Part shown: positions 13,465-61,414 of the stretch, piece after piece | Layout: every line of letters begins with the position of its first letter | How positions within the stretch are numbered: position 1 is the first letter of the stretch | DNA from: Anaerolinea sp. | GTDB lineage: Bacteria; Chloroflexota; Anaerolineae; Anaerolineales; Anaerolineaceae | Direction of reading: 5' to 3' | DNA: 64,000 nt | NCBI GenBank assembly: GCA_020725865.1 | Contig: DYEC01000012.1 | Location: 367,440-431,439, forward strand | Position numbers and translations under genes: made by a program | The notes under the pieces: model-generated | What the model was told of the DNA's origin: nothing | The model's input: the letters and a program-made list of their open reading frames with translations, nothing else | The model's database searches: none

Positions 13465-14163
13465 ATGATCCCGACCAGACGCGGTATAAGGGTTAGAGAA
13501 GTTGTGTCTCTAAACCGTATACAAAGGGTTATGGCTAAGACAATGAAAACTAGCGTTGAAACCGCAGCATTTAGCCAATTGAGCCGCGAAATTGACATGA
13601 CATCATTAGTCTCCCTTATCAAACTGCGTAAAGATCAAAATCCGTTATCACTAAACACTCTACTGATGGCAATCACAGCCCGTACATTGCCACAATGTCC
13701 ATATCTAAATTCGGAACTTGTGGACCAACAGATTTATGTCTATGAACAAATTAATTTAGGAATGGCTGTCGCTACTCAAGCCGGGCTGGTCGTTGTTGTC
13801 ATCCCTGATGCCAACCTGCTCTCGTTGGAGCAATTATCAGAAGCAATACAAACAAAAGTTCAAAAAGCTCGCACTGGAAATCTCTCGATTTCTGACATTG
13901 AGGGTGGCACGTTTACAGTAAGTAATCTCGGTATGTATGGTATAGATGCCGGCTTTCCAATCCCTCGACCACCAGAATGCGCAATTTTATTGATCGGCGC
14001 AATCCGTCCCCGTCCCGTAGTATTCGATGGTCAAATTACGATTAGAGATGTTGGTACATTAAGTCTGACCTTCGATCATCGCTTTATAGATGGCGAAAAG
14101 GCAGCAACCTTTCTCAATTACCTTAGTCAAAACATTCAGGCTCCCCAAACTTTATTGGAATGA
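13465..14163 (+). CDS. Stand-alone 2-oxoacid dehydrogenase E2 catalytic domain
   Basis: This 232-residue protein consists only of the acyltransferase core of E2 subunits. It has the N-terminal RIQRVMAKTM helix, the GMAVATQAGLVVVVIPDA strand pair, FTVSNLGMYGIDAGFPI, and the catalytic DHRFIDG motif with the active-site His and Asp intact. Lipoyl and E3/E1-binding domains are missing. It follows GAGAGG plus ATG and a palindromic operator and leads an operon with a deaminase. It could form the E2 core with the other E2-like proteins at 32756 and 36906, or be a free acyltransferase. Confidence 0.85.
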   Translation: MIPTRRGIRVREVVSLNRIQRVMAKTMKTSVETAAFSQLSREIDMTSLVSLIKLRKDQNPLSLNTLLMAITARTLPQCPYLNSELVDQQIYVYEQINLGMAVATQAGLVVVVIPDANLLSLEQLSEAIQTKVQKARTGNLSISDIEGGTFTVSNLGMYGIDAGFPIPRPPECAILLIGAIRPRPVVFDGQITIRDVGTLSLTFDHRFIDGEKAATFLNYLSQNIQAPQTLLE

Positions 14164-14197
14164 GATTTTTTCTCTCCCCAGACACAAGGAGGCAATA

Positions 14198-15580
14198 ATG
14201 ACAAATATATTGATCAAAGATGGCACAATCCTTCCTTGCAATCAAGACTTCAAAGAAATTATTACACCCGGATATGTATATATCCGCGGGGAAGTCATTG
14301 AAGCTGTTGCCGCTGGAGAACCACCAGAAAGATTTCTTAATGAAAGTGATGAAATTATATCTGCGACCGGGTTTGTAGTAATCCCTGGGCTGATTAATGC
14401 CCACACTCACCTCTTCCAAACATTTATCCGAGGGTTGGCAGACGACAAACCGCTATTACAATGGCTGGCATCAGCTACATGGCCCGGCGCTCTGGCAATG
14501 ACAGAGGAAGATTTTTATCTGTCCGCATTGATTGGTTATGCCGAAAACTTAAAATGTGGTGCCACATCAGTTCTCAGCCAGGATTACGTACAGACCTCAA
14601 AAAGAAACATGGACCGCGTTGCTGATGCCGCGTATGAGATTGGCGTGAGAGCCTTGCTGGCGCGCGGCTACGCCGATCGTGATCCTTATAAGCCTGAGTT
14701 TCAGGAAACTCCAGAAGTTGTTATTCGGGAAACAGAGCGCTTGGTAAAGCATTGGAATCACCGCGAAGGCGGGAGAATACGGGTTGAGTTTGGGCCTTTA
14801 ATTCCATGGGGATGCCGGCCAGACACGTTGCAAAAAATTAACCAGCTAGCACAAGAATGGGACACAGGTATCCACATTCACGTCAACGAAACGCAACCCG
14901 AGGTTCAAATGAGCCTTGACGAGTATGGTGTTCGTCCGGTTCGCTGGCTTTATGAGCTTGGCATTCTCAACGACAGATGGCAATTGGTACACTGCGTTTG
15001 GCTGGACGAAGAAGAGATGGACATCATCGCACAAACAGGTGGAACAATTATTCACAACCCGGTCAGCAATATGTATCTGGCATCTGGCATACCAAAAGTG
15101 ACCGAATGGCGAAAACGCAATATCCCAACCGCTCTGGCAACAGATGGTCCTGGATCGAATAATTCACAAGATATGATGGAAGTCTTGAAATTTACCGCTT
15201 GTCTGCAAAAAGTCGGAACACTAGACGCCACAGCGCTGTTACCTGAGGATGTGCTTGAAATGGCATATCATGGTGGCGCAAGAGCAATGCGTTTACCAGG
15301 AAAAATTGGACGTTTAGCTCCAGGAGCTTTTGCGGACATTGTTTTGCTTAACCTGAAACGTCCCCACATTGCCCCCGTTCATTCCCCGGCATCTGCCTTA
15401 GTGTACAACGCAAACGGGAATGATGTAGACACAGTGATGGTGAATGGCAAAATTGTCGTTCGCAATGGCAAGTTACTAACGGTGAATGAAGACAAGCTAA
15501 TTGCCGATTGTCAACGCGCAGCAGAGAAAATGGCTGACCGAGCAGGCATTCAATCTTGGCGTTCAAAAAATTGGTTCTAG
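14198..15580 (+). CDS. ATZ/TRZ-family amidohydrolase (aminohydrolase) 1
   Basis: The 460-residue enzyme belongs to the metal-dependent amidohydrolases that deaminate guanine, adenosine derivatives or s-triazines (SsnA/AtzA/TrzN branch). Metal ligands are all present: NAHTHLFQT (H69, H71), HIHVNETQPE, VHCVWLDEEE and the catalytic Asp in ATDGPGSNNSQDM. The frame is open 36 codons further upstream, but the start at 14198 follows an AAGGAGG site. Its stop shares the CTAG with the stop of the convergent kinase. It is one of four paralogues in the window and most similar by eye to the one at 54237. Confidence 0.88.
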   Translation: MTNILIKDGTILPCNQDFKEIITPGYVYIRGEVIEAVAAGEPPERFLNESDEIISATGFVVIPGLINAHTHLFQTFIRGLADDKPLLQWLASATWPGALAMTEEDFYLSALIGYAENLKCGATSVLSQDYVQTSKRNMDRVADAAYEIGVRALLARGYADRDPYKPEFQETPEVVIRETERLVKHWNHREGGRIRVEFGPLIPWGCRPDTLQKINQLAQEWDTGIHIHVNETQPEVQMSLDEYGVRPVRWLYELGILNDRWQLVHCVWLDEEEMDIIAQTGGTIIHNPVSNMYLASGIPKVTEWRKRNIPTALATDGPGSNNSQDMMEVLKFTACLQKVGTLDATALLPEDVLEMAYHGGARAMRLPGKIGRLAPGAFADIVLLNLKRPHIAPVHSPASALVYNANGNDVDTVMVNGKIVVRNGKLLTVNEDKLIADCQRAAEKMADRAGIQSWRSKNWF

Positions 15581-17085
15581 CTCAACCCAGACTCCTCTTT
15601 GCCCATAAACACAAAAGGCTTTTCTAGAGCCTCGTCAAACTTGCAATAATACTTAAACAAACGATCATACAAGCCTGTAACTTCAGGATCCGGATCGGTA
15701 ACGATTGGGTCCTGAAGCCATTTATGATTGATCTCAGCAAAGTCCTTTTTTAAGCCCGTTGCATAGCCGGCGAGAAAAGCAATACCCAATGCTCCACTTG
15801 ATTTTGGATGATATATCAACTGTACGTTCAATATGTTAGACATAATTTCTCGCCATAAAGCGCTACGAGCACCTCCAGCAGTCACGACAACACGCTTGAT
15901 AGACTCCTTTAACTCTTCGTACCCCTGACGAATATTAAAAGCAAATGCCTCCAGAAGACCACGGTAAACATGTCCAGAGGTATGGAAAGGTGTTAATCCC
16001 AAGATCACTCCCCGTAAATATGGGTTTTGGACAGGTGTCCTTCTTCCTAAGAAGTGTGGAAGTATGATCAATCCATCAGCACCTGGTGTGATAAGTCGGG
16101 CCTGGTTTTCTAAGAGCAAAAATTCGCTTATTTTTGACCGCTCTGCAACTAATCGTTCTGCGTGTGCAAACTGTTCTCGAAACCATTGAACCATACGGCC
16201 CGCAGATAATACATTTGCTCCCCACTTTACCGCTCCTGGAGAGAAGTCACTTTGGAAATGTGGACCTTCGATGGCTTCTACTAACGGACGAACTGTCAAT
16301 GTCAGCAAACCGGTCGTTCCGAAAGAGATCATAGCATCACCAGGATTGATCGCCCCGCATCCTACAATGGTGGGAAAAGTATCTCCCGTGCCGGCGATCA
16401 CAGGAATGCCAGGTTTCAATCCAGTTATTTGCGCCGCTTCAGCCGACACCTCGCCGACAATACCCGTGACAGGCAAAGGTTTTGGCCAGATGGAAACGGG
16501 TAAACCAAGCATCCTGAGAACCTCTTCTTTCCACTGATGCGTCCGCGTATCAAAGATTCCCCCCATAATTGAGGCATTATCATAATCCATGGACAGTCTA
16601 CCAGTTAACCGATATACGACGTAACCATTTGCCGTGACCGTTACCATCATACGCTCAAACACTTCAGGCTCATGACGCCGCAACCAGACAAGCTTCGGGA
16701 CAACTGCCTCTGCGCTTAAAGACAGCCCCGTAAGTTGATTAACCCAGGTCAATTCATCTACAGCGCGATTGTCTGAATACAGAATTGCAGGACGCAAAGG
16801 TTGTCCATACTTGTCCAGTGGACACAAACAACATGCCAGCGCAGTGACGCCAATGGCTTGAATCAAATTCGAAGCATCCTTGTGGCATGACAATAGATTA
16901 CGAATTACATGAACACAAGCAAGCCACCAATCTTGCTCAGCGTCCATCTCTGTCCAACCTGGTTGAGGATGTCTTGGATGACGTTCGAAACTAGCCTCAA
17001 AAACCACATCACCTTGTGTGTTAACTAGCACTCCTTTAATTGCTTGAGTACCTAAATCCAACCCCAAAATTAATCCTGAAGTCAT
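15577..17085 (-). CDS. FGGY-family carbohydrate kinase (xylulokinase-like)
   Basis: The 502-residue kinase has the ATPase fold signatures of the FGGY family: GLDLGTQAIKG at the N-terminus, the DTFPTIVGCGAINPGDAMISFG phosphate segment and VVTAGGARSALWREIMSN near the end. It would phosphorylate a sugar or polyol, with xylulokinase the nearest named relative. It is the last gene of the long leftward cluster and is preceded by an intrinsic terminator 23 bases before its start. The start at 17085 is chosen for its GGAGG site. Confidence 0.85.
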   Translation of the reverse strand: MTSGLILGLDLGTQAIKGVLVNTQGDVVFEASFERHPRHPQPGWTEMDAEQDWWLACVHVIRNLLSCHKDASNLIQAIGVTALACCLCPLDKYGQPLRPAILYSDNRAVDELTWVNQLTGLSLSAEAVVPKLVWLRRHEPEVFERMMVTVTANGYVVYRLTGRLSMDYDNASIMGGIFDTRTHQWKEEVLRMLGLPVSIWPKPLPVTGIVGEVSAEAAQITGLKPGIPVIAGTGDTFPTIVGCGAINPGDAMISFGTTGLLTLTVRPLVEAIEGPHFQSDFSPGAVKWGANVLSAGRMVQWFREQFAHAERLVAERSKISEFLLLENQARLITPGADGLIILPHFLGRRTPVQNPYLRGVILGLTPFHTSGHVYRGLLEAFAFNIRQGYEELKESIKRVVVTAGGARSALWREIMSNILNVQLIYHPKSSGALGIAFLAGYATGLKKDFAEINHKWLQDPIVTDPDPEVTGLYDRLFKYYCKFDEALEKPFVFMGKEESGLS

Positions 17086-17107
17086 TTTTCCAAAACCTCC
17101 AATCGTT

Positions 17108-17144
17108 AAAAAAGCACGGTCTGCCAATTTCATTACAGACCGTG
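17108..17144 (-). terminator. Intrinsic terminator/attenuator between Zn-dehydrogenase and FGGY kinase
   Basis: On the minus strand a perfect 9-bp stem CACGGTCTG/CAGACCGTG (17144-17136 with 17123-17115, 12-base loop) is followed after one base by six T residues. The kinase ribosome-binding site begins only about 10 bases later, so kinase expression depends on read-through or on antitermination. Confidence 0.7.
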
Positions 17145-17164
17145 TCACTTTGAAAAAATTTCCG

Positions 17165-18199
17165 CTAGAAAGTCACAATAACCCTGTAGGTATCTGGGCT
17201 GATCGCACGCTCAAAAGCATACCCAACGCTGGAAAACGGCACGCGTTCGCTGATAAAGGGCGCAATATTAATCATTCCTTGTGATAACATAGATACCGCT
17301 TGGCGGAAACTGTTTTTTGTATGAGAAAAAGTCCCGGTAACAACCCACTCGTTATAATGAATGTCGTTCGGATCAATCTCAAGCATTCCTTTGGGATGCA
17401 CAGAACCATAAAGACAAAGCCAACCACCCTTTGAAAGAAAACTTAAGGCTTGCTGGATGGCAGGTATTCCGCCCGCCGTGAAAAAGATTGCACGAAATTT
17501 TCTTCCGCCGTTGAAATCCAGCACAGTTCGTTCAAAAGTCGGGGACATTGGGTCTGCTGCCAGATCTGCGCCCAAAGCCAAAGCTTTCCCCCTTCGAACA
17601 GCATCTGGCTCACTCACCATCACTTGTACACCAAGCTGTTTCAGCAAAAGCACATGGAGCAATCCCATTATTCCTGTACCCTGAACAAGAACGTGATCCC
17701 CAAATTCTAATTCGGGGCGGCTGACGCTCCGTATCACACAGGCAACTGGTTCAGCCAGGGCTAAATGATCAAAATTGCTACCAAGCTTTGCTTTATAAAC
17801 CTGGTAATCTTCCAAAATTACAAACTCACTCAGCCCGCCGGGACCCCATAGCTGATAGGGAGGATGCCCGCCCTCATCTAACTCGCAAAAGTTATCCATT
17901 CCACGGCGGCAATGATCACAGACACCACAGCGCGTCATAATAGCAAGCGCGACCGGATCGCCAACTGCAGCAACATCTATCACATTCGATCCGAGTTCAA
18001 CTACTTCTCCTGAAACCTCATGTCCGCCCCGAAATGGATATTCTTCTGGTGAACAGCCTTTGTAAAAACGCTGTTCCCAGGTACATATTGCGCAACTTTT
18101 TACCTTGATCAAAACCTGTCGAGGACCCAAAGGCGGCAATTCAATTTCCTGAATTTCGACTTTTTGGGGTCCTGTAATAACAGCTGTTTGCGTTTTCAT
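17165..18199 (-). CDS. Zinc-dependent medium-chain alcohol/polyol dehydrogenase
   Basis: The 344-residue protein is a medium-chain dehydrogenase. Catalytic zinc ligands sit in CAICTWEQRF and GHEVSGEVVELG, the structural zinc site is CGVCDHCRRGMDNFC, and a Rossmann fold begins at VLVQGTGIMGLLHV. It resembles sorbitol/threonine-dehydrogenase-like enzymes and would oxidise a secondary alcohol with NAD(P). It lies between an SDR and the kinase in the leftward cluster, suggesting a sugar or polyol side-chain as substrate. Confidence 0.87.
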   Translation of the reverse strand: MKTQTAVITGPQKVEIQEIELPPLGPRQVLIKVKSCAICTWEQRFYKGCSPEEYPFRGGHEVSGEVVELGSNVIDVAAVGDPVALAIMTRCGVCDHCRRGMDNFCELDEGGHPPYQLWGPGGLSEFVILEDYQVYKAKLGSNFDHLALAEPVACVIRSVSRPELEFGDHVLVQGTGIMGLLHVLLLKQLGVQVMVSEPDAVRRGKALALGADLAADPMSPTFERTVLDFNGGRKFRAIFFTAGGIPAIQQALSFLSKGGWLCLYGSVHPKGMLEIDPNDIHYNEWVVTGTFSHTKNSFRQAVSMLSQGMINIAPFISERVPFSSVGYAFERAISPDTYRVIVTF

Positions 18200-18243: not shown

Positions 18244-19029
18244 TCAACTCATCACCATTCCGCCGTCAACCTCGATTGCTTGCCCGGTGATGTAGCGCGA
18301 ATCCTTAGAGGCCAGAAAGGCAATCACCCCAGCAATTTCCCAAGGCTCCGCCAGACGTTTCATCGGGCAGTCGTTTGCACGCATTTGTAACCATTCTTCA
18401 GCAGTCATACCGTCCCGCGTGCCCACTTGCTCTGCAACTCCTCTGACCATTTCCGTCAATGTATTTCCCGGACAAACTGCATTCACAGTGACACCATACG
18501 GCGCCAATTCTTGCGCTACTGAGCGCGTCAAACCAATTACACCGCTCTTTGACGCTGAATATTCCATCGTGCCTGGCCAGCTCGTTTTTCCTGCCATAGA
18601 AGAAATATTAACGATACTGCCAGAGCGTTGTTGCATCATGATCGGAGCTACCGCCTGGTTGCACAAAAATACGCCCGTCAAGTTAATGTCAATTGTCCGT
18701 TGCCACTGTTCCAATGAAACATCCACCAGCGGTGCCCCAGTATATATCCCTGCTGACGTGACCAGGACGTCAATTCGCCCCCAGCGTTCTAAAATGGACG
18801 CAAATACCGTTTTGACATTCTCCATATCAGCCACGTTGCAATGTAATGCAATAGCATCTACGCCATACTGATGCAAACTTCTTGCCGTCGCTTCATTCGC
18901 AACATCATCAACATCCAAACAGGCCACATTTGCACCTTCTTCAGCAAAACGAATAGCGGTTGCCTGCCCGATACCCTTTGCCGCTCCTGTGATTACAGCA
19001 ACCTGACCAACAAATCGCTTCTGTTCCAT
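18244..19029 (-). CDS. Short-chain dehydrogenase/reductase 1
   Basis: The 261-residue SDR is classical: cofactor motif TGAAKGIG, NNAG-equivalent VTSAGIY, and an intact catalytic Ser-Tyr-Lys (NISSMAG, YSASK). The acidic residue after the second strand (CLDVDD) favours NAD. It is separated by 21 bases from the HcnB-like gene upstream and would be a 3-hydroxy or polyol dehydrogenase. It is similar in layout to the SDR at 29044, and both keep the Tyr that the two pteridine-reductase-like SDRs lack. Confidence 0.85.
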   Translation of the reverse strand: MEQKRFVGQVAVITGAAKGIGQATAIRFAEEGANVACLDVDDVANEATARSLHQYGVDAIALHCNVADMENVKTVFASILERWGRIDVLVTSAGIYTGAPLVDVSLEQWQRTIDINLTGVFLCNQAVAPIMMQQRSGSIVNISSMAGKTSWPGTMEYSASKSGVIGLTRSVAQELAPYGVTVNAVCPGNTLTEMVRGVAEQVGTRDGMTAEEWLQMRANDCPMKRLAEPWEIAGVIAFLASKDSRYITGQAIEVDGGMVMS

Positions 19030-19050: not shown

Positions 19051-20490
19051 TCATTCTGAAAAATTTAATTCTTGTGCCGCCTTGGCCAGTTCTTCCACCG
19101 TCATCGGTTCAAGTGGCGGACGAATTGAGTATGCCCCCCCCTTATCTATATCCAAATAACTTTGTCCGGTAAATGCCATCACCGCATTTCTCACCGAGTG
19201 TTCACACATTCTACCTTGACAATTCCCCATCCCAGTTCTCGTCAGCATTTTAACTTCAGTTACTGATCGAGCACCCATCTCTATCGCTGCGCGTATTTCC
19301 CGACGCGTAATCTCTTCGCACCGACAGATAGTTGTTTCATCCGTCGAAAGATTAAACAGGTCTGATCCTCGTACAAAAACCTTGCCCAGCATTTCAGCAA
19401 AGCGCTGCTGTCGTCTTAAAAGCGAGCGCAGTTTTCCATACTCCCACTGAGCAGTTGAGTGACCAAGCCTACCCAAGCGGCTGGCAACTGCTACCCCAGC
19501 CACTCGCCCCTCGAGACGTGCTAGTTCTGCCCCGCCAATTCCACCTGCATCCCCAACCACATATACGCTCGGCAGAGATGTTTGCATAGTTTCATCGCGC
19601 TCTGGAATAATGCCTCCTTTTTCGCCTACGTAGCTATGCTTACACCCCATCATGCGGCTTAGGTAATTATTCGGTACAAGCCCGTATCCTGAAATAATTG
19701 TGTCAACCTTCACAGTTCGCCTCGAAGATGGAACAGGATTCAAGCGGTTGTCTAAACGGGCAATAACTGCCTCTTCAACTTTACCATTACCACGTGCTTC
19801 TACGACCGACCAGCCAATTCGATATGGAGCTTTTGCCCTCAGGATCGTGCTCAAATACTTGAACCCCTCTTCAATCCGATTGGTTTGCCCTAAGATAAAT
19901 GGAATATACGGTATCGCTTTCCAAAACGGTCTAGATGCCTCGCAAATTTCAACCACTTCGGCACCGCCTTCAATAAGATGCGCCGCAACAGAAAGCAACA
20001 AAGGTCCGCTACCGGTCACAAGCACGCGTTTGCCAGGAAGAATGCGCTGCGTCTTCACCAAAATCAGAGCTGCTCCTGCGCTGATCACCCCAGGCAAAGT
20101 CCAACCAGGGAAAGGCATCGGCAAGTCATATGCCCCTGTAGCTAGAATAACCGAATCTGCGGTTATCAATCTAGGCGACTCGTTGCCCGTTAAGGCAATT
20201 AACCATCCTTTTTCACCCTCTTTTGGAAAGATTCCCCATACTAACGTACCAAAGTAGCGTGTTATCTCAACCCCGCCTAACAGCCTGATAAGCATATCCC
20301 CTTCAGCTTCAACTTTGGTTCGATGGCGAGCAGAAAACTCCGCAGGCAACTCTTTATAATATTGTCCGCCCGGCTGCGGATAACGATCAATGAGCACTGT
20401 ACTGACCCCCGCCTCTGCGGCAGTGATGGCAGCCTCCATTCCTGCTGGTCCCCCACCAACAACTGCCAGCTCATAACGCACTTCTTTCAT
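19051..20490 (-). CDS. FAD/NAD(P)-binding oxidoreductase with BFD-like [2Fe-2S] domain (HcnB-like)
   Basis: The 479-residue protein has two nucleotide-binding motifs (VVGGGPAGMEAA near the start, VLVTGSGPLLLS in the middle) and a C-terminal Cys-rich domain, CRCEEITRREI...GMGNCQGRMC, of the BFD type. It matches the alpha subunit of hydrogen-cyanide synthase, opine oxidase and D-hydroxyproline dehydrogenase complexes, which pass electrons from an amine oxidase subunit. The start at 20490 overlaps the stop of the ferredoxin-like gene as ATGA and follows AGGAGG. Confidence 0.87.
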   Translation of the reverse strand: MKEVRYELAVVGGGPAGMEAAITAAEAGVSTVLIDRYPQPGGQYYKELPAEFSARHRTKVEAEGDMLIRLLGGVEITRYFGTLVWGIFPKEGEKGWLIALTGNESPRLITADSVILATGAYDLPMPFPGWTLPGVISAGAALILVKTQRILPGKRVLVTGSGPLLLSVAAHLIEGGAEVVEICEASRPFWKAIPYIPFILGQTNRIEEGFKYLSTILRAKAPYRIGWSVVEARGNGKVEEAVIARLDNRLNPVPSSRRTVKVDTIISGYGLVPNNYLSRMMGCKHSYVGEKGGIIPERDETMQTSLPSVYVVGDAGGIGGAELARLEGRVAGVAVASRLGRLGHSTAQWEYGKLRSLLRRQQRFAEMLGKVFVRGSDLFNLSTDETTICRCEEITRREIRAAIEMGARSVTEVKMLTRTGMGNCQGRMCEHSVRNAVMAFTGQSYLDIDKGGAYSIRPPLEPMTVEELAKAAQELNFSE

Positions 20491-20792
20491 GCTGCAACCT
20501 CCTCTTGCGTAACTACGGTCATACCATCCGTGACTGGGGTCAAACAGGCTCGTACATTCTTGACGCCATTGATTGTTACAAGACATTCAAAACAAATTCC
20601 CATACCGCAGTACATCCCGCGCGGCATTTTGTCCTTTGCTGTGGTACGGAACACACGAAACCCAGACGCCATCATTGCCGCAGCCACAGTTTCCCCTTCA
20701 AAAGCCTCTATTGGCTTTCCATCAACGGTGATCTGTACCTTCCTGCCACGCTTAACCTCAGGAAGCAACGAGGTGCTTTTTTCAATGCGCAT
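20487..20792 (-). CDS. Small [2Fe-2S] subunit (HcnA-like)
   Basis: The 101-residue protein is a plant-type ferredoxin domain with CGMGICFECLVTINGVKNVRAC supplying the cluster cysteines. In opine oxidase, D-hydroxyproline dehydrogenase and HcnABC complexes this small subunit lies next to the HcnB-like FAD protein, as here. It overlaps the DAO gene upstream by 11 bases, so the four genes from 23086 to 19051 are translationally coupled. Confidence 0.87.
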   Translation of the reverse strand: MRIEKSTSLLPEVKRGRKVQITVDGKPIEAFEGETVAAAMMASGFRVFRTTAKDKMPRGMYCGMGICFECLVTINGVKNVRACLTPVTDGMTVVTQEEVAA

Positions 20793-23086: not shown

Positions 23087-24045
23087 CCTTCCTCACGCTT
23101 AAACGGACTGCCGTATGAAGCAGGCCAGCTAGCCCGCCCTACCACAGAAATCAATGCAATCATCGTAACAACGTAAGGCAACATTACAAGAAACTGATAC
23201 GGGATTCCCAAATTCAAGGCCTGGATACGTAACTGCAGTGCGTCCGCAGCTCCAAAGAGAAGTGTTCCCAAAAATACCCCAACCGGCTGCCATTTTCCAA
23301 AAACGATTGCAGTATATGCAATAAATCCACGCCCTGCCGTCATGTTTTCCATATATGATCCTAACAATCCGATAGATAGAAACGAGCCAGCTAATCCGCT
23401 GAACGCACCAGCAAAAATTATTGTGGCGTAGCGTACTTTCGAAACACTGATTCCAACTGTATCCGCTGCATGTGGATGTTCACCAACCGCTCGTATCTTT
23501 AATCCCCATGATGTACGATACAAAATAAACCATACAACTGGCACAAGCACATAACCCACATAAACAACTGGGAGGTGATTGAAAAGGACAGGACCTAAAA
23601 TTGGGATATCTCCTAAAAGTGGTATCTTCACTAGAGGAAGCTTTGGAACCTTTATAACCGTTTGTATAACTTCAGAGCCACGCGTAAAGACGAGAGCATA
23701 TAGAACCGCTGAAAGTCCAACTGCTCCGAGATTCAGTCCAACGCTGGTAACAATTTGGTGCGCACCTACAGAAACCGCCATGAGTGAATAGGCGAATCCA
23801 ACAAGCATCCCGAAGACAATAGCTAACAAAACTCCCATCCACACATTCCCGAAAACCCCGCTACCAATAATTCCTCCCACGGCACCCATCAACATCATAG
23901 CTTCCATGCTAAACGTGACAACACCAGAGCGTTCAGCTAACACACTACCCACTGCCGCTAACAGCAACGGAGTGGTCATGCGGACAACTGCAACATAAAA
24001 GTCGAGATTTAGAAAGATGGACGCTAAATCGCTAAGCATTGGCAA
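23083..24045 (-). CDS. BMP-type ABC importer 1, permease (NupQ-like)
   Basis: The 320-residue membrane protein has about nine hydrophobic segments and the ABC-2 sugar/nucleoside permease family signature (LAERSGVVTFSMEAMMLMGA, SWGLKIRAVGEHPHAADTVGIS). It matches the second permease of BmpA/NupABC-class nucleoside importers. It overlaps the other permease by 14 bases. Ligands of this class include purine and pyrimidine nucleosides and related heterocycles. Confidence 0.88.
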   Translation of the reverse strand: MPMLSDLASIFLNLDFYVAVVRMTTPLLLAAVGSVLAERSGVVTFSMEAMMLMGAVGGIIGSGVFGNVWMGVLLAIVFGMLVGFAYSLMAVSVGAHQIVTSVGLNLGAVGLSAVLYALVFTRGSEVIQTVIKVPKLPLVKIPLLGDIPILGPVLFNHLPVVYVGYVLVPVVWFILYRTSWGLKIRAVGEHPHAADTVGISVSKVRYATIIFAGAFSGLAGSFLSIGLLGSYMENMTAGRGFIAYTAIVFGKWQPVGVFLGTLLFGAADALQLRIQALNLGIPYQFLVMLPYVVTMIALISVVGRASWPASYGSPFKREEG

Positions 24046-25306: not shown

Positions 25307-25334
25307 TTGTCTCTTCCTAATCGTTAATCTTCTA

Positions 25335-51449: not shown

Positions 51450-51493
51450 TTTTAAAGATACGTTTCGCTATTTACCCCAAAACGAGGTTGCAA

Positions 51494-54236: not shown

Positions 54237-55544
54237 ATGGCGCAATCATTTGACCTCTTGATTCAAAACGGTCATGTTTTCACTGAAACAGGATGGTTAT
54301 CCCCAGGCTACGTGGTTATTGATTCGGGCTGTATCCGACAGATTAAAAATGGAGAGGCACCCCAAGAAATCGTATCCCTGGCGAAGAGAGTGATCAATGC
54401 TTCGGGAATGGCTGTCATTCCTGGTCTCACTAACGCTCATACGCACTTATGTCAGACCTTTATGCGCGGACTGGCAAATGGACGTCCGCTGCTTTCATGG
54501 CTTAAAGAGCTGATTTGGCCCCTGCAGGCTGCAATGGGGTCAAGCGAAGTGGCTCTAGCTGCTACGCTCGGATTAGTCGAAAATTTGCATTCCGGCGTCA
54601 CCCACGTTGTCAATCATCATAAGATCACGCACACCTTAGAACACACCCAGGTTGTTTGTCAAGCAGCACAAAAAATTGGAATACGTTGCACAATTGCGCG
54701 TGCATGGTCAGATCGCGGTTCAGGAGCAGAAGGTCAGCGAGCTATCCTGGACGAACTAGAAGAATTATTCTCTACTTGCCATAACGTCAGTCCTCTCATT
54801 AGGATAGCAAACGGTCCGCTAACTCCTTGGCGTGCAACCGCCGAAACGCTACAACGTACTCACGCACTGGCACAACACTACAATAGCTTTACACACATCC
54901 ATGTTGCTGAAACAAGAGATGAAGTTCAGATGACGCTCAACGAGACCGGATTAAGACCCATCGCTTGGTTAGATGCACTCGGTGTGCTTGGGACGGATTG
55001 TCAAATCGTCCATGGCGTTTGGGTAGATGAACAAGAAATTAGTTTACTACGCGAACGAAAATCCCTGGTAATCCATTGTCCAGTGAGTAATGCAGTTCTA
55101 GGTTCGGGCATTGCGCCGGTGGTTCAATTCCTACAGCAGGACATTCAAGTGCTCTTAGGAACAGATGGTTCAGCCAGCAATGATACACAAGACATGTTTG
55201 AAACCATGAAAATGGCTTTGTGCCTTGGACGCGTCAAGGCACTGGACCCAATGGTGCTTTCGCCGCAGAAAGTGCTTGAAATGGGTTTTGCCGGAAAATC
55301 AATCCGTGAGAATCAACCTGCTGATTTGGTTTTGGTTGAGCTAGACTCCAGCCATACTGTGCCTGTTCACGACATCGTCTCTGCGCTTATTTTGTGTAGT
55401 CGCAGCTCGGATGTACATACAGTGATTGTGGATGGCAAGATTGTTCTGGAAAACCATCAGATATGCGCATTGGACGAAAAAGCCTTAATCCAAGAGTGCA
55501 ATCATGCCGCTAAAAAATTGCTTGAAAGAGCAGGGATTTCCTGA
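54237..55544 (+). CDS. ATZ/TRZ-family amidohydrolase (aminohydrolase) 4
   Basis: The 435-residue enzyme has NAHTHLCQTFMRG, HIHVAETRDEVQ, VHGVWVDEQE and GTDGSASNDTQDMFE. It is of the same group as the enzymes at 14198 and 29814, and resembles the 14198 copy closely through the metal motifs. It starts 20 bases after the stop of amidohydrolase 3, and its ATG lacks a strong ribosome-binding site, so coupling is likely. Confidence 0.87.
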   Translation: MAQSFDLLIQNGHVFTETGWLSPGYVVIDSGCIRQIKNGEAPQEIVSLAKRVINASGMAVIPGLTNAHTHLCQTFMRGLANGRPLLSWLKELIWPLQAAMGSSEVALAATLGLVENLHSGVTHVVNHHKITHTLEHTQVVCQAAQKIGIRCTIARAWSDRGSGAEGQRAILDELEELFSTCHNVSPLIRIANGPLTPWRATAETLQRTHALAQHYNSFTHIHVAETRDEVQMTLNETGLRPIAWLDALGVLGTDCQIVHGVWVDEQEISLLRERKSLVIHCPVSNAVLGSGIAPVVQFLQQDIQVLLGTDGSASNDTQDMFETMKMALCLGRVKALDPMVLSPQKVLEMGFAGKSIRENQPADLVLVELDSSHTVPVHDIVSALILCSRSSDVHTVIVDGKIVLENHQICALDEKALIQECNHAAKKLLERAGIS

Positions 55545-55557
55545 AGAGGGAAAAAAG

Positions 55558-56937
55558 ATGACCACCAAGATTTACAATCTGCGCACTTTCCTTGATAAGT
55601 TGAACGAAACTGGACAATTGACCAGAATCAGCAAGCCAGTTTCTATCGTGCATGAACTGGCAAATGTGGCGGCAACACTTGTCCGTCAAGGCGGCGGAGC
55701 AGTGTTATTTGAACATCCTGTTGGCACAAAAGAAACGTTTTCCTGGCCCATTTTCACAAACGCCGTGGCAAATCAGACTTCAGCCGCAATTGCTCTTAAC
55801 TGTGCCACTGCTGAAGTTACGGAACGAATGGGCTGGGCGTTAGAACCTGCCAATGGTATTCGCCCGCAATTCACAGATGAACAACCACCTTGGAAACAAA
55901 ACATTATCAAGGGAAATGACATCGATCTCTATCGCCTTCCCATTCCAACCCACGGCAAACTAGATGGCGGTCCCTTTATCACGGGCGGGGTTACCGTGAC
56001 ACGTGATCCAATTTCTGGGCGCGGCAATCTTTCCTATAACCGTATGCAGGTGCTGGGAAAAAGCACCTTTGGTTTCAATGTCAACGAATGGCGGCATGTT
56101 ATGCAGTTTTACAAGGTGCAACAAGAAAAAAATGAACCCTTACAGGTTGCAATCATCATTGGTTTGGATCCGGCAATCAGTATCGCCGCGGGCGCTCGTT
56201 ATGATGATGATGAATTGCTGATCGCTGGCGCCATTCGCGGTGAACCCGTCAAGGTGACCAAAGGTGTTACCGTTGATTTAGATATTCCCGTCGAAGCTGA
56301 GATTGTGATAGAAGGATACTTACCGCCACACAAACGTCAAAAAGAAGGTCCGCTTGCAGAATTTCATGGATATTATGGTGAGCTTTGGGAAAGCCCGATC
56401 TTTGAAGTAACTGCCATTTGCTATCGTGATAATCCCATCTATCAAACGATCATTCCCGGCTGGTCTGAGCATATTTATATTGGCAATGTTTTGCCGCGTG
56501 AACCTTTACTGCTCAGATTTGTCCGCCATGTTAGTAAGAATGTTGTCGGATTACACATTCCTCCTTACAGCAATGGATTCACTGCAATCGTGCAGATTAA
56601 TAAAAGCAATCCCGGCGAACCCAAGAACGTCGCTATGGCGGCTTTCACAGCGCATGTCAACATCGCGAAAGTAATTGTCATTGATTCAGATGTGAACATG
56701 TATGATCCAGCGGACATCCTATGGGCATTATCGAACCGCGTTGACTGGTCGCGCGATATCTTTTTGGTGCCAGGCGCTCAGGGACATGAGATGGATCCAA
56801 CCGCAGATATGCGCGGCGTGCAAACCAAAATTGGCATTGACGCCACATATAAACCCGAACGCAGGGATTATGGTGAACGCATTCAATACCCTGAAGTAGA
56901 TCTCAGTCAGTATCTAAATTCCGCGAGAAAAGGATAA
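55558..56937 (+). CDS. UbiD-family prenylated-FMN decarboxylase
   Basis: The 459-residue protein is a UbiD-type (de)carboxylase: RTFLDKLNETGQL start, PVGTKETFSWPIFTN, HGKLDGGPFITGG, and EFHGYYGELWESPIF are family segments. UbiD enzymes need prenylated FMN made by UbiX, which is not in the window. In this operon it could decarboxylate an imidazole or other heterocyclic carboxylate. The start at 55558 is the ATG after AAGAGGG. The open frame begins 18 codons earlier inside the deaminase gene. Confidence 0.85.
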   Translation: MTTKIYNLRTFLDKLNETGQLTRISKPVSIVHELANVAATLVRQGGGAVLFEHPVGTKETFSWPIFTNAVANQTSAAIALNCATAEVTERMGWALEPANGIRPQFTDEQPPWKQNIIKGNDIDLYRLPIPTHGKLDGGPFITGGVTVTRDPISGRGNLSYNRMQVLGKSTFGFNVNEWRHVMQFYKVQQEKNEPLQVAIIIGLDPAISIAAGARYDDDELLIAGAIRGEPVKVTKGVTVDLDIPVEAEIVIEGYLPPHKRQKEGPLAEFHGYYGELWESPIFEVTAICYRDNPIYQTIIPGWSEHIYIGNVLPREPLLLRFVRHVSKNVVGLHIPPYSNGFTAIVQINKSNPGEPKNVAMAAFTAHVNIAKVIVIDSDVNMYDPADILWALSNRVDWSRDIFLVPGAQGHEMDPTADMRGVQTKIGIDATYKPERRDYGERIQYPEVDLSQYLNSARKG

Positions 56938-56946: not shown

Positions 56947-58158
56947 ATGAGCAACGATATTGCTTCACTGGCAAAGGAAATTGCCAAAGTTGCAGACAGC
57001 CTAAATTCTCAGATGATAAACTTTCTAGCTGATCTTATCCGCATCCAAAGTTACACCGGACAGGAACGAGAAGCTGTTGAACGCACCCTTAAGGAGCTAA
57101 CCGCAATCGGGTGCGAAGAAGTATGGATGGATAGTGCCGGCAACGCTTTAGGAAGAATTGGTTCGGGGAAACAGCTCATCTTATATGACGCTCACCTGGA
57201 TACAAACGAAGTTGCCGATGAAAGTGAATGGCCTCACCTACCGTTAGAGCCTGTCATACAAAATGGAGCCATGTGGGGACTAGGTGCGTCGGATTGTAAA
57301 GGAGGTGTGGCATCCATTGTTTATGGCGCTGCTATTCTCAAGGCACTCAAATTAAGCGGTGATTTCTCTTTGATCGTCATGGGTGCAACTCTGGAAGAGG
57401 ATGCAGAAGGCTTTGCCCTACGTTCTTTGGTGGAAAAAGATGGACTAAAGCCGGATGTGGTCTTAATAGCCGAAGCAACTGATTTGGCATTAAGTATCGG
57501 ACAACGCGGACGCTGCGAGGTGCGTGTCAGAACAACTGGCAAAGCTGCCCATGCCAGTCAGCCAGAACTAGGTGAGAACGCTATTATGAAAATGGTCCCG
57601 GTTCTTCAAGGATTAGATGCCATGATTCCTTCTCTGCCCAAGCATCCTGTCTTTGGCACAGGACATCAGGTTGTGTCCCTGATTACTGGACCAAATACGC
57701 CAAACTCTGTTCCAAGCTGGTGCGAAGTAACGCTTGATCGTCGTATCGTTCCCGGTGAAACTGCCGAATCGGTATTGGAGGGTATTCGCCGCGTTGTCGA
57801 ACCTTTAGGCGCACAAGCGTATATTCCCGACCAACCTGTATTAACCCACACTGGTCAACGCCTTGATGGACCGAGCTTCTATCCGGGCTGGGAATTATCC
57901 CAAGACTCACCTTTATTCAAATCAAGCCAGAAAACCTGCCAAATGCTGTGGGGAAAGCCAGCCGACGTGATTGTCTGGAAGTTTAGCACAGATGGCGCCT
58001 ATTCCGCCGGAACAGCCGGCATACCCACAATTGGCTTTGGACCACAGGAAGCTCAATACATCCATACGCCACAGGATCAAGTGAATCTTGAAAAAGTCCG
58101 CAAGGCGGCAATGTTTTACGCGCTGTTTCCAATTTTGTATACTATGCAAAATACATGA
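56947..58158 (+). CDS. YgeY-like M20 hydrolase
   Basis: The 403-residue protein is of the M20 family, with LYDAHLDTNEV, WGLGASDCKGGVAS, ATLEEDAEGF and HASQPELG as metal and catalytic regions. The layout is that of YgeY, the hydrolase linked to ygeW and hyuA in E. coli purine-type clusters. It acts on an N-carbamoyl or peptide-like bond; the true substrate is unknown. It directly precedes the second YgeW-like gene, as the E. coli ygeW-ygeX-ygeY set would suggest. Confidence 0.85.
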   Translation: MSNDIASLAKEIAKVADSLNSQMINFLADLIRIQSYTGQEREAVERTLKELTAIGCEEVWMDSAGNALGRIGSGKQLILYDAHLDTNEVADESEWPHLPLEPVIQNGAMWGLGASDCKGGVASIVYGAAILKALKLSGDFSLIVMGATLEEDAEGFALRSLVEKDGLKPDVVLIAEATDLALSIGQRGRCEVRVRTTGKAAHASQPELGENAIMKMVPVLQGLDAMIPSLPKHPVFGTGHQVVSLITGPNTPNSVPSWCEVTLDRRIVPGETAESVLEGIRRVVEPLGAQAYIPDQPVLTHTGQRLDGPSFYPGWELSQDSPLFKSSQKTCQMLWGKPADVIVWKFSTDGAYSAGTAGIPTIGFGPQEAQYIHTPQDQVNLEKVRKAAMFYALFPILYTMQNT

Positions 58159-58199
58159 CATTCACAACTAAAAAAATTTTTTTCATAAGGAGAGAAAAA

Positions 58200-59192
58200 A
58201 TGCAAACCACGTTATTTAATAAAGACTTTATTACCACTGAAGATTGGTCAGTTCATGAATTAGAGGCAATGCTTGAGGCTGCTGGTGAGCTCAAGCGCCG
58301 TTTTGCCTTTGGCGAGCCCCATGATCATATCCTCCGCGCAAAAACACTCTTTATGTTGTTCTTCGAAGAGTCGACTCGCACACGAAATTCGTTTGAATCG
58401 GGCATCACCCAATTAGGCGGACACGCCATCTATCTCACGCCAAGCGCCACTCAAGTGGGACATGGCGAAAGCGCCAAAGATACCGGTATGGTACTGGAAC
58501 GTTACGGACATGGCATCGCCGTTCGCGATTGCCGGACAAATATTGGTCAAGCCTATCAATATGACTTGGCAAAATGGATTGACATTCCGGTAATTTCCAT
58601 GCAAGACGATGTAGATCACCCCTGTCAGGCTATGGCTGACCTGATGACTATCCGTGAAAAGTTCGGCACCAACCTGCGCGGTCTGAAATTTGTGATTTCC
58701 TGGACCTATGCCCCCAAATACGTCCGTCCGCTCTCAGTTCCACAAGCATTGATTATGCTGATGACTCGTTTTGGCATGGATGTTACTCTGGCACATCCAA
58801 AAGGTTTTGAAATGATGCCCAAATGCCTCGAAGCCGCTCGCAAACACGCAGAAGAAAACGGCACAAAATTCGAGGTTATTGACGATATGGATGAAGCTTT
58901 CAAAGACGCTGATATTGTGTACCCCAAGAGCTGGGGTCCCATTATGGTCACCGAAGAACCCAAGGAAGTCCAAGCCATGTGTGATCAGCACAAAGATTGG
59001 ATTGCCGATGAGCGGAGAATGGCGTTAACTCGCAAGCATTCAATTTACATGCACTGCATGCCTATTGACCGAGGTTATGAGGCAACCGACGCTGTTATTG
59101 ATGGACCACACTCCGTCATCTATGACGAAGCAGAAAACCGCCTACACGTGCAAAAAGCGCTCATGGCATTGACAATGGGTGGGCGGATTTAA
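58200..59192 (+). CDS. YgeW-like knotted carbamoyltransferase 2
   Basis: The 330-residue paralogue of the enzyme at 48700 has STRTR, HPCQAMAD and HCMPIDRG. The start at 58200 follows AAGGAGAG; the frame is open 15 codons earlier. Two different YgeW-like enzymes in one island could serve two ureido groups of one intermediate, or two pathways. This one is coupled to YgeY-like, MoaD-like and AOR-3 genes. Confidence 0.87.
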   Translation: MQTTLFNKDFITTEDWSVHELEAMLEAAGELKRRFAFGEPHDHILRAKTLFMLFFEESTRTRNSFESGITQLGGHAIYLTPSATQVGHGESAKDTGMVLERYGHGIAVRDCRTNIGQAYQYDLAKWIDIPVISMQDDVDHPCQAMADLMTIREKFGTNLRGLKFVISWTYAPKYVRPLSVPQALIMLMTRFGMDVTLAHPKGFEMMPKCLEAARKHAEENGTKFEVIDDMDEAFKDADIVYPKSWGPIMVTEEPKEVQAMCDQHKDWIADERRMALTRKHSIYMHCMPIDRGYEATDAVIDGPHSVIYDEAENRLHVQKALMALTMGGRI

Positions 59193-59213: not shown

Positions 59214-59498
59214 TTGCTCGAGATACCTGAAAACGGGCAAACACCCTACCTTTCTCAGAACGAGACTATGGAAAAAGCCGTCAGCATCTGGATGGAGAAA
59301 TCTTTGCTGGGCACGAATACCAGCCAAACAGTGATTGTTGACGCCGGACAAAACATCCTGCAGACATTACAATACATAAACATTCGATTGCGTCAGCCCG
59401 TTGCAGCCATCGTTAACGGCAAAACGGTAGATTTAACCGAGTATATCTTACAACCGGGTGACAACGTTCAGCTCATCCCCCAAATTGGAGGAGGGTAA
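59214..59498 (+). CDS. MoaD/ThiS-like protein ending in Gly-Gly-Gly
   Basis: The short protein (94 residues from a TTG, or 76 from the ATG at 59268) has the ubiquitin-like pattern VNGKTVDL...LQPGDNVQLIPQIGGG with a free C-terminal GGG. Unlike the first MoaD-like protein it can be adenylated directly. It precedes AOR-3 by 5 bases. The N-terminal part up to residue 18 is not typical of MoaD. Confidence 0.72.
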   Translation: MLEIPENGQTPYLSQNETMEKAVSIWMEKSLLGTNTSQTVIVDAGQNILQTLQYINIRLRQPVAAIVNGKTVDLTEYILQPGDNVQLIPQIGGG

Positions 59499-59503
59499 AT
59501 CCC

Positions 59504-61414
59504 ATGACCATTATCGGAAAAACCTTTTCCATCAATAACCGTCCCGAAACACTTACAAAGGAACTATCCTATACCGGGAAAATATTGAGGGTAAATCTGA
59601 ACAACGGCAGAATCTGGGTAGAAGAACCCGAGGAAGCATTTTACCGAAAGTTAATTGGAGGACGCGGATTCATTCTCCATTATTTGCTTACAGAGTTACC
59701 CTCTAGAATAGATGCACTGGACGCACAAAACTTGCTGATATTTGCGCCCGGTGTATTAAGCGGAACAGTGTTGCCCGGAACGGGTCGCCACGCAGTGGGC
59801 GCCAAATCGCCGCTCACCGGGGCACTCGCCAGTGCAGAAGCGGGTGGGTGGTTTGGATCAGAGTTAAAACGAACAGGTTTTGACGCAATTATTATTCAGG
59901 GACGCAGTGATGTCCCTGTGTACTTATGGATTAAAGATGGAACTGTCGAAATCAAAGATGCCAGCCATCTATGGGGAAAAACGGTGGGGGATACTCACCA
60001 AATGATTGCCGACGAACTGGACGAACCAAAGATTCGCTCTGCAATTATAGGGCCTGCCGGTGAAAATCTGGTGCGGTACGCAGCCGTTATCCATGATAAG
60101 AATCGCGCTGCAGGGCGCTCCGGTTTGGGCGCTGTGATGGGAAGCAAAAACTTGAAAGCTGTTATCGTGCGCGGCTCAAATAAAGTCGGGCTGGCGGATA
60201 AAGCGTTGATGCAAACCGTCCAGCGATGGATCAACAGTAATTATAAAACTCTTATGAGCTGGGCAGTTACCTATGGTACTTCGGGATCAGTCAAGTTTAA
60301 CCATGACTCGGGCGGTACAGCGATACGCAATTATCTGGATAACGCGCTGGAAGGTATAGAAAATCTTGATGCGCGCTCGTTTTTCCAGTATTTACTTAAA
60401 GACCGCGATACCTGCAATCAATGCCCGGTGCGCTGCAAGCTCGTTGTGGAGTATCACGACAAGGATTTACATATTGATCCTCGATACGGCGGACCAGAAT
60501 ACGAAACAATTGGTGCGATGGGTCCGCTATGCGGTATTAATGATGCAATTGCGGTAGCAAAAGCACATGAGCTCTGTTCTGCCTATGGATTGGATACGAT
60601 TTCAACCGGCGCTACCATTGCTTTCACCATGGAATGCGCGGCAGAAGGATTGCTGAGCGGTTACGATTTTCTGCCGTCTTTTGGCAATGCCGAATCATTG
60701 ATTGAGAGCATTCATCGAATAGCCAAACGGGAAGGAATTGGCAATGAGATGGCAGAAGGCAGCGCACGCATGGCACAAAAACTCGGTGAAAAAGCCCAAT
60801 CTATACTGGCGGTTGCGCGCGGTCAAGAGCTGCCATTGCACGATCCCCGCTACAAAAATTTATGCGCTATGGGATATGCGTTATCAGCAACCGGGGCAGA
60901 CCATCAACATAATCTGATTGACAATTTCGCGAATTTTCCCGGTTCGGAAGTTTGCTTACGTCTGGAGGAAATGGGAGTGCAAACTCCACTGCCGCTTTGG
61001 GGAATCAATGATCATAAAATTGAAGGGTTTGTCTACGAAACTGCATTCAAAAACTTTCTCGACAGCGCAGTAATCTGTCATTTTTATCCTTATCAGTTCA
61101 AGCACGTGGCAGATGCGCTTGGCGGAGCTTGCGGCTGGGATATGACACCGACAGAAATTTATGAAATTGGTTCGAGAATCATTAACATGGCTCGATTGTT
61201 CCTGATTCGAGAAGGATTTACGGATAAGGATGATACCTTATCGGCGCGAGCTTTCTATAAGCTTTCAAGCGGGCCGATTGCCGGCAGAGGATTGACACCA
61301 GAGGAATTGAAATATTGGATACAAAAGTACTATATGTGCATGGGATGGTCAAACGAAGGTGCTCCTACCCCTGAAACGCTGGCTCACCTGAACATAAACT
61401 ACCCCATTGCCTGA
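59504..61414 (+). CDS. Tungsten aldehyde:ferredoxin oxidoreductase family protein, AOR-3
   Basis: The 636-residue protein has IGGRGFILHYLL (residues 51-62), C304, C307 and C311 (CNQCPVRC), a fourth ligand C525 in SAVICHF, and GPEYETIGAMGP. It is the last gene of the rightward operon and precedes an intrinsic terminator. An N-terminal extension of about 20 residues before the core GKILRVNL distinguishes it from the other two. Confidence 0.9.
   Translation: MTIIGKTFSINNRPETLTKELSYTGKILRVNLNNGRIWVEEPEEAFYRKLIGGRGFILHYLLTELPSRIDALDAQNLLIFAPGVLSGTVLPGTGRHAVGAKSPLTGALASAEAGGWFGSELKRTGFDAIIIQGRSDVPVYLWIKDGTVEIKDASHLWGKTVGDTHQMIADELDEPKIRSAIIGPAGENLVRYAAVIHDKNRAAGRSGLGAVMGSKNLKAVIVRGSNKVGLADKALMQTVQRWINSNYKTLMSWAVTYGTSGSVKFNHDSGGTAIRNYLDNALEGIENLDARSFFQYLLKDRDTCNQCPVRCKLVVEYHDKDLHIDPRYGGPEYETIGAMGPLCGINDAIAVAKAHELCSAYGLDTISTGATIAFTMECAAEGLLSGYDFLPSFGNAESLIESIHRIAKREGIGNEMAEGSARMAQKLGEKAQSILAVARGQELPLHDPRYKNLCAMGYALSATGADHQHNLIDNFANFPGSEVCLRLEEMGVQTPLPLWGINDHKIEGFVYETAFKNFLDSAVICHFYPYQFKHVADALGGACGWDMTPTEIYEIGSRIINMARLFLIREGFTDKDDTLSARAFYKLSSGPIAGRGLTPEELKYWIQKYYMCMGWSNEGAPTPETLAHLNINYPIA

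Follow-up and report, generated by a model that had tools for sequence, protein, structure and literature searches.

The final 64 kb of the 431-kb contig C10 of an Anaerolinea sp. genome (G000; 3.12 Mb, 99% complete) contain a recurring catabolic-type island at positions 13465-61414. Coordinates without a contig label refer to this 64,000-nucleotide stretch, called the window below. The island is distinct from the locus in the same genome that encodes the purine-pathway amidohydrolase SsnA, and behind it stands a family of paralogues of methenyl-tetrahydromethanopterin (methenyl-H4MPT) cyclohydrolase (Mch) outside one-carbon (C1) metabolism; both points are solid. We counted 41 genes in the island, and 40 of the encoded proteins were scanned against NCBIfam, the small open reading frame (ORF) at 59214-59498 being assigned by Pfam.

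Gene content of the island

The features are as follows, with scores in bits.

13465-14163, +, E2 acyltransferase catalytic core without lipoyl domain (NCBIfam sucB-type core, residues 7-231)
14090-15580, +, AHa, AtzA-superfamily amidohydrolase (5'-deoxyadenosine deaminase family 378, cut-off 522; SsnA 233, cut-off 455.5; HxH motif)
15577-17148, -, FGGY carbohydrate kinase (XylB 302, cut-off 380)
17165-18199, -, medium-chain (MDR) zinc dehydrogenase (NCBIfam)
18244-19029, -, SDR1, short-chain dehydrogenase (SDR) (NCBIfam)
19051-20586, -, SoxA/HcnB-like FAD oxidoreductase (NCBIfam)
20782-21939, -, SoxB1, SoxB/ThiO-like FAD amine dehydrogenase 1 (NCBIfam)
21923-23086, -, SoxB2, SoxB/ThiO-like FAD amine dehydrogenase 2 (NCBIfam)
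23083-28118, -, BMP-type ATP-binding cassette (ABC) importer 1 with two permeases, an ATPase and a binding protein, the last at 26988-28118 (below cut-off for each of NF047927-30, the 'B6' family)
28240-29034, -, DhnA/LsrF-type aldolase (NCBIfam)
29044-29838, -, SDR2 dehydrogenase (NCBIfam)
29814-31277, -, AHb, AtzA-superfamily amidohydrolase (NCBIfam)
31228-31980, -, FolM1, pteridine-reductase-like SDR (PRK09134 219.7, cut-off 281; pteridine reductase PRK09135 210, cut-off 288)
31999-32730, -, FolM2, pteridine-reductase-like SDR (best family PRK09135 pteridine reductase, 213, cut-off 288)
32756-33961, -, E2 lipoyl acyltransferase (NCBIfam)
33961-34764, -, HypI, hydroxypyruvate-isomerase-like TIM barrel (NCBIfam)
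34776-35813, -, E1 beta, pyruvate dehydrogenase (PDH)/acetoin dehydrogenase class (PRK09212 399.8, over 321)
35764-36762, -, E1 alpha, same class (348, cut-off 393.9)
36906-37682, -, E3-binding domain and degenerate E2 core (domain scan)
37705-38007, -, MoaD1, MoaD/SAMP-like protein (NCBIfam)
37976-39901, -, AOR1, aldehyde:ferredoxin oxidoreductase (AOR) family (PF01314 415; PF02730; CxxCxxxC)
40047-41003, +, Mch homologue, Asp at position 186
41097-45915, -, BMP-type ABC importer 2 (NCBIfam)
45982-47901, -, AOR2
47938-48669, -, GntR-family regulator (NCBIfam)
48700-49758, -, CTase1, OTC-fold carbamoyltransferase 1 (NCBIfam; motif SLRTR)
49886-51262, -, HydA1, D-hydantoinase 1 (469, over 393)
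51488-52867, +, HydA2, D-hydantoinase 2 (483, over 393)
52885-54216, +, AHc, AtzA/SsnA-superfamily amidohydrolase (SsnA 259, cut-off 444, and 243.5, cut-off 455.5)
54237-55544, +, AHd, AtzA-superfamily amidohydrolase (NCBIfam)
55504-56937, +, UbiD-family decarboxylase (321.7, over 244.9)
56947-58158, +, YgeY-family M20 hydrolase (373.7, over 321)
58155-59192, +, CTase2, OTC-fold carbamoyltransferase 2 (STRTR; 90-91% identical in G025)
59214-59498, +, MoaD2, ThiS/MoaD-like protein (Pfam)
59504-61414, +, AOR3, recurring partner of UbiD, YgeY and CTase2 (domain scan, recurrence)

A preliminary description of this DNA had proposed a catabolic island for a nitrogen heterocycle, which the gene content supports. 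Its UbiD decarboxylase and YgeY-like hydrolase exceed their family cut-offs, as do its two hydantoinases (by TIGR02033, a D-hydantoinase model and not one specific for HyuA), and its three AORs are confirmed. Two carbamoyltransferase genes of the OTC fold are present as it said, but both stay under the YgeW cut-off of 453 bits, at 165.2 and 227.5. Similarly, the superfamily given for the four SsnA/AtzA-like amidohydrolases is right but the SsnA cut-off is missed (243, 233, 190 and 189 bits against 455.5), and the two importers, taken for nucleoside transporters, are of the BMP type with best models in the 'B6' BMP family, below cut-off. The genes for Mch, FolM1 and FolM2, E1 alpha, E1 beta and E2 with the extra E2 pieces, the SoxA/SoxB flavoproteins, the FGGY kinase, the DhnA aldolase, HypI and the two MoaD-like proteins had not been listed. 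The AORs carry the CxxCxxxC motif and the AFOR_N and AFOR_C domains, the AFOR_N scan covering AOR1 and AOR2. The AOR1 and Mch genes are divergently oriented, both in the window and in G025.

Recurrence in related genomes

The relatives of G000 are Anaerolineae metagenome-assembled genomes. A comparison of gene order in other Anaerolineae had been proposed earlier, and parts of the island do recur together, which we take as more than chance, in ten related genomes, picked via the HypI gene, which is present in 11 of 101 genomes including the window's own. A gene counted as matched at 50% identity or above, and the counts cover the 18-100 kb retrieved from each genome instead of whole genomes; for a few of the identity percentages, G004 or G054 itself supplied the reference. 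HypI was matched in all ten relatives, DhnA in nine, SDR1, FolM1 and FolM2 in eight each, E1 alpha and E1 beta in seven each, UbiD in six, and YgeY, CTase2 and AOR3 in five each. AHd and AHa recur in three genomes each, HydA2 in two, and AOR1, Mch and CTase1 in one each, while AOR2, HydA1 and importer 2 were found in none of the ten stretches. The 41-51 kb segment of the island is peripheral, since AOR2, HydA1, importer 2 and CTase1 recur in 0, 0, 0 and 1 of the ten. By the same counts (5, 1 and 0 for AOR3, AOR1 and AOR2), AOR3 is the only core partner among the three AORs.

Most of the set lies on one contig in G025. The order there is Mch, AOR1, E1, an ORF matching MoaD1, a second AOR1-like gene, E1, HypI, E2, FolM2, FolM1, AHb, SDR2 and DhnA, followed by an importer, SoxB2, SoxA, SDR1, MDR, FGGY, AHa, AHd, a second Mch, an SDR, E1 and SoxB1, and then by a molybdenum (Mo)-hydroxylase, AHc, HydA2, a regulator, an AOR, an iron-type alcohol dehydrogenase (Fe-ADH), UbiD, YgeY, CTase2, MoaD2 and AOR3. 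The two halves of the island are interleaved in G086 (AOR3, CTase2, YgeY, a luciferase-family gene, UbiD, AHd, Mo-hydroxylase, FolM2, E2, HypI, E1 and AHc, then HydA2). Orthologous islands lacking the hydrolases or the importers had been named as an outcome that would speak against the preliminary description. This was half borne out: G007 and G058 keep the hydrolases, and importer 1 was not found in their stretches.

A family of Mch paralogues

The window Mch fits the family model and fold, and the model cut-off is exceeded by every member that was tested, from Chloroflexota, Bacillota and Actinomycetota. Mch was found in 14 genomes, with up to five copies per genome. We compared its neighbourhoods at 79 loci, taken from the best 80 of 106 confirmed, with one genome contributing several, phyla assigned by record title and the Halanaerobiales placed with the Bacillota. 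In four phyla the paralogues adjoin E1/E2, SDR, amidohydrolase, importer or Sox genes. Nine of the 79 loci hold at least two Mch genes, mostly from different tree clades (L117, L113, L131, L133, L112, L116, L144, L135 and L072), and the presence of several paralogues in a locus suggests successive Mch-type steps.

A tree of 105 copies was calculated with FastTree; 89 Mch had been extracted from the 79 loci, and 19 copies sharing a stretch with copies already in the set were excluded, as were two fragments from G070. The C1 copies cluster with 1qlm (support 0.999). In the clade of the window Mch (5/5, support 1.0), positions 93-95 read QKH or QRH, QKH in the window itself, and position 186 is Asp. 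Residues 91-110 of the window Mch, where this segment differs, are modelled at low confidence (pLDDT 70 and 62). A clade with QFS at 93-95 (17/17, support 1.0) is also separate in the tree. Arg183 is kept in all 105 copies, while position 186 is Glu in 95 copies and also in three His93 copies, Asp in six, and Ala in one, a C1 copy. We take residue 186 to be the catalytic Glu and presume roles for Arg183 and the 93-95 segment as well; such roles for R183, E186 and the segment were reportedly described by Upadhyay et al. in 2012. A QIA-type Mch outside the window clade (G054:C46:7879-8832, L039) also has Asp at 186.

The segment at 93-95 varies with the neighbouring genes. In a tally limited to the 70 locus-derived copies, with neighbours counted within 6 kb, QIA-type copies lie near E1 in 42 of 52 cases and near Sox genes in none of the 52, and QFS-type copies lie near Sox genes in six of ten and near E1 in none of the ten. 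Genome-specific duplication combined with these partner-specific active sites is a better fit to Mch copies working on different substrates than to a single C1 carrier.

The window Mch also differs from the C1 enzymes of archaea and methylotrophs in that it is not beside C1 genes, is multi-copy, and has Asp for Glu186 and QKH at 93-95. We rejected it as the C1 enzyme of G000 because the C1 copy lies on contig C11 with Fwd-type subunits and the C1 formyltransferase Ftr. Ftr was matched in 6 of the 14 Mch genomes, one match being a fragment, and had no match in the other 8. None of the 14 has a match over cut-off to ribofuranosylaminobenzene phosphate (RFAP) synthase, a methanopterin marker, although a divergent bacterial RFAP synthase could be missed because the only controls for the model were ones in which archaea scored. 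Without G018 and G038, whose sole copy is in the C1 cluster, 12 of the genomes count as non-C1 Mch genomes. The C11 locus (G000:C11:5040-15246, L064) encodes, besides Fwd, Ftr and Mch, an MptN-like ligase (268 bits, cut-off 350) and an energy-coupling factor (ECF) T component (75 bits, cut-off 112), with no RFAP synthase over cut-off. G000 may salvage methanopterin from methanogens or may use another carrier.

Other families recur beside Mch. A luciferase-family (Mer-like) gene is near Mch in all 31 Actinomycetota loci, and the one such protein scanned is nearest to Mer, at 192 bits under a cut-off of 276. PF00809, the methyl-tetrahydrofolate:corrinoid methyltransferase family, was found in 6 of the 79 loci by clustering, with one member scanned. 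Some Clostridia loci encode a RibD_C protein of the dihydrofolate reductase (DHFR) fold whose nearest solved relatives are 5xux, which we take to be the archaeal Rib7, and its kin. A PF01522 polysaccharide-deacetylase-family protein recurs beside QFS-type Mch (L139:8121-8921, G009:C9:8847 and G031:C9:62617).

FolM-like reductases and the E1/E2 complex

FolM1 and FolM2 were aligned with relatives at 40% identity or more, giving 26 rows (25 genes, one of them twice). The TGxxxRxG motif is present in 24 of the 24 rows that cover it, and Asp replaces the SDR Ser in 26 of 26. We take both features to be hallmarks of PTR1 and FolM.

The acetoin dehydrogenase complex AcoABC cleaves a ketol oxidatively. 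The E1 alpha, E1 beta and E2 proteins of the island belong to the PDH/acetoin class, as does this complex, and an E3 gene accompanies them in some Bacillota Mch loci. Some close relatives of E1 alpha are named acetoin oxidoreductase, but neither the family models nor such names distinguish an E1 for a ketol from one for pyruvate. Unlike the acetoin genes, however, the E1/E2 genes of the island are placed among genes of pterin and N-heterocycle type. Two of the E2 pieces are unusual, namely the core without a lipoyl domain (13465-14163) and the E3-binding domain with a degenerate core (36906-37682).

A possible pathway for reduced pterins

Pterins such as monapterin, neopterin, biopterin and fragments of folate or methanopterin are widespread cell products. 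We propose, with a probability of roughly 40%, that the island serves the import and breakdown of a reduced pterin whose side chain is a short polyol or ketol; judged from gene families, a reduced pterin is the likely substrate. This reading is based on the recurrence of families that bind or reduce pterins, namely Mch, the FolM-like SDRs, the luciferase family, PF00809 and RibD_C. It is favored over a purine, which lacks a side chain for a ketol-cleaving complex, and over a flavin, which has no amino group for the deaminases. A pterin was among the substrates allowed by the preliminary description.

In the proposed pathway a BMP importer would take up the pterin compound, and FolM1 and FolM2 would set the oxidation state of its ring. 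The side chain would be worked down by the FGGY kinase, the SDR and MDR dehydrogenases, the HypI isomerase and the DhnA aldolase. The ketol would then be split oxidatively by the E1/E2 lipoyl complex in the manner of acetoin dehydrogenase, the resulting aldehyde converted to an acid by AOR3 (and AOR1), and the acid decarboxylated by UbiD. Mch, where present, would hydrolyze the C=N bond next to N5 of the reduced ring, in parallel to the opening of methenyl-H4MPT, leaving an N-substituted glycine on which the SoxA/SoxB amine dehydrogenases would act. This role as a pyrazine-ring-opening hydrolase is speculative. The pyrimidine ring would be deaminated and opened by the amidohydrolases and D-hydantoinase, aided by the Mo-hydroxylase of contig C14 described below, and YgeY and CTase2 would remove the ureido group, CTase2 yielding carbamoyl phosphate for ATP.

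More broadly, and with somewhat less assurance than we attach to the substrate, these loci could represent an undescribed family of reduced-pterin pathways in Anaerolineae, Acidimicrobiia, Clostridia and Spirochaetes. In this scheme Mch would have radiated into ring-opening hydrolases whose 93-95 segment varies with the partner genes, the pyrazine ring of a dihydropterin would be opened hydrolytically, the exposed ketol split by E1/E2, and the pyrimidine dismantled by UbiD, amidohydrolases and hydantoinase. We searched the open literature and found no described gene set for anaerobic breakdown of the pterin ring. Bacterial pterin catabolism is known from Variovorax sp. F1, which degrades folic acid by a route with a pterin deaminase (an Arad3529 orthologue) and carboxypeptidase G (PMC9513972). 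The available portion of that paper has bacterial pterin catabolism in common with the reading proposed here, including the deaminase, but names two enzymes and no ring-opening set, and Mch, FolM, E1/E2, UbiD and AOR do not appear in it. If the proposal is true, the Mch family model labels catabolic enzymes as C1-pathway markers, which bears on claims about methane cycling made from metagenomes. The same module occurs in Clostridium sp. 1001271st1 H5 and in Pseudoflavonifractor, where bacterial loss of biopterin or neopterin would then be directly testable; these strains are presumably gut isolates.

Several observations weigh against this proposal. No island gene names the substrate, and each pterin clue is weak alone, the argument being one from family function. 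FolM1 and FolM2 fall under the pteridine-reductase cut-off (210 and 213 bits against 288), the nearest solved structures to FolM1 are generic SDRs with FolM and PTR1 ranking lower, and all 26 FolM rows have His at the Tyr of the YxxxK pair. Pyruvate dehydrogenase is the commonest source name among the 120 relatives listed for E1 alpha, and E1 alpha and FolM2 are not island-specific, since their relatives number in the thousands. The activity of the window-clade Mch may be altered, because all five members have Asp where the solved Mch has Glu186. Among the stretches of the ten HypI genomes, Mch was matched at 50% identity or more in G025 only, and the next closest copies (in G031, G054 and G009) have no island genes alongside. 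Mch is not essential to the island, since G001, G058 and G086 keep core genes with no Mch match. A Mer-like gene is found in the SsnA locus too, and PF00809 is a possible pointer to C1 chemistry. Importer 2, AOR2, HydA1 and CTase1 are essentially non-recurring, and the relatives are not phylogenetically independent, so that Fisher values computed over them overstate.

Breakdown of a flavin or deazaflavin with a ribityl chain (riboflavin, FO or F420) is an unlikely alternative, in which polyol enzymes would strip the ribityl chain, hydantoinase open the pyrimidinedione and UbiD decarboxylate the product. The XylB-type FGGY kinase, UbiD and the hydantoinase suit it, as do the BMP importers, whose family has riboflavin carriers among its members, and G000 has the F420 genes cofD and cofE. 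However, flavins have no exocyclic amino group, yet the island encodes four amidohydrolases of the AtzA type (although SsnA is itself a ring-opening enzyme), and FolM, Mch and the PF00809 relatives point to pterins.

It is also improbable that two unrelated pathways simply adjoin, one for a polyol or sugar with E1/E2 on the left and one of N-heterocycle hydrolases on the right. G031 has the halves on different contigs, and the thousands of E1 and FolM2 relatives would be consistent with this. However, the halves share a contig in G007, G025 and G058, and in G086 they are interleaved in one run (UbiD-AHd-Xdh-FolM2-E2-HypI-E1).

We consider it quite improbable that Mch and its neighbours carry C1 units on a tetrahydropterin and that the island acts on an N-methylated or C1-yielding substrate through Sox-type amine oxidation, Mer-like reduction and a methyltransferase. 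The luciferase-family genes of the Actinomycetota loci, the PF00809 family and the Sox genes near QFS-type Mch would fit such chemistry. However, the number of Mch copies per genome and per locus, the context-specific active-site segments, and the Ftr and RFAP synthase results given above all argue against it.

Purine genes and molybdenum hydroxylases

The preliminary description had favored a variant of the reductive purine or ureide pathway with AORs for the redox steps, and this is the least probable of the alternatives: YgeY and the hydantoinases exceed their cut-offs, carbamoyltransferases are present, and a xanthine-type permease and an XdhA-type subunit accompany E1/E2/E3 and lipoate ligase at one Mch locus (L118, where the Clostridium Mch homologue is at 10001-10939), but the true SsnA of the genome lies elsewhere, the island amidohydrolases score far under the SsnA cut-off, AOR3 alone of the AORs recurs, and the pathway, in so far as the available part of PMC12507026 describes it, has no place for the E1/E2 two-oxoacid/ketol complex, for FolM and Mch or for the FGGY kinase and aldolase. 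The absence of ygeX, ygfK and xdhD, which counts in favor of such a variant, was stated correctly. YgeX reaches 45 bits at best in the genome against a cut-off of 532, and nothing in it exceeds the cut-off for YgfK or for XdhD. A PALP match at C17:166758 was rejected as YgeX, its best models being threonine synthase; PALP proteins near Mch in Peptococcaceae were likewise rejected, the one scanned being tryptophan synthase beta.

SsnA is encoded on the same contig at C10:326448-327773 (526 bits over 444; 494 over 455.5), some 40 kb to the left of the window, and given this separate locus we rejected the island as the purine cluster. Ten surrounding proteins were scanned. To the right of SsnA are CofE, CofD, a Mer-like F420-type oxidoreductase, a diphosphatase, an XdhC-type maturase, a fused XdhB-C, XdhA/PucD, YqeB and YqeC-MocA. 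A tblastn search of the 20 kb to the right, a partial search in which the left side was not compared, gave no hydantoinase, carbamoyltransferase or YgeY match. In Chloroflexota the usual partners are missing near SsnA, and a luciferase-family F420 enzyme stands in place of YgfK or UacX, according to the part of PMC12507026 at hand. The G000 locus resembles this published uric-acid cluster, but includes xanthine dehydrogenase (XDH), which the wording of that part may exclude. For none of the 40 scanned island proteins is the top-scoring model one of the luciferase family or of Mo-hydroxylases; UacX was not searched genome-wide. Selenium and Mo cofactor genes accompany SsnA, cofE/cofD, the Mer-like reductase and XDH at G000:C10:326448-340300 (L156, L192).

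As the same part of PMC12507026 presents it, the reductive uric-acid pathway (xdhD-ygfK-ssnA-hyuA-ygeW-ygeY-ygeX) shares with the island a YgeY-family hydrolase, a hydantoinase, an OTC-fold carbamoyltransferase and amidohydrolases of the same superfamily, and removal of a ureido group with formation of carbamoyl phosphate is a plausible common end. Unlike that pathway, the island has no SsnA, YgfK, XdhD or YgeX over cut-off, and it adds UbiD, AORs, E1/E2, FolM-like SDRs, Mch, FGGY kinase and aldolase.

The suggestion that AORs take the place of molybdenum enzymes was also rejected, given Mo-hydroxylases at ten G000 loci (11 PF20256 matches) and a related Mo-hydroxylase within the island of three relatives. 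In G025 the Mo-hydroxylase, regulator, AOR and Fe-ADH are inside the island between SoxB1 and UbiD, and in G058 and G086 a Mo-hydroxylase lies between AHd and FolM2. In G000, Mo-hydroxylase subunits are encoded on the 10.6-kb contig C14 together with an HTH-cupin regulator, an AOR, an Fe-ADH, SoxB and a luciferase-family protein.

A second cluster of purine/pyrimidine type is found at G000:C17:155400-174950 (L160), with adenine deaminase, XDH, D-hydantoinase, a BMP importer, carbamate kinase and a carbamoyltransferase. CTase2 matched 75 of the 101 genomes, most of which hold a carbamoyltransferase about 50% identical to it.

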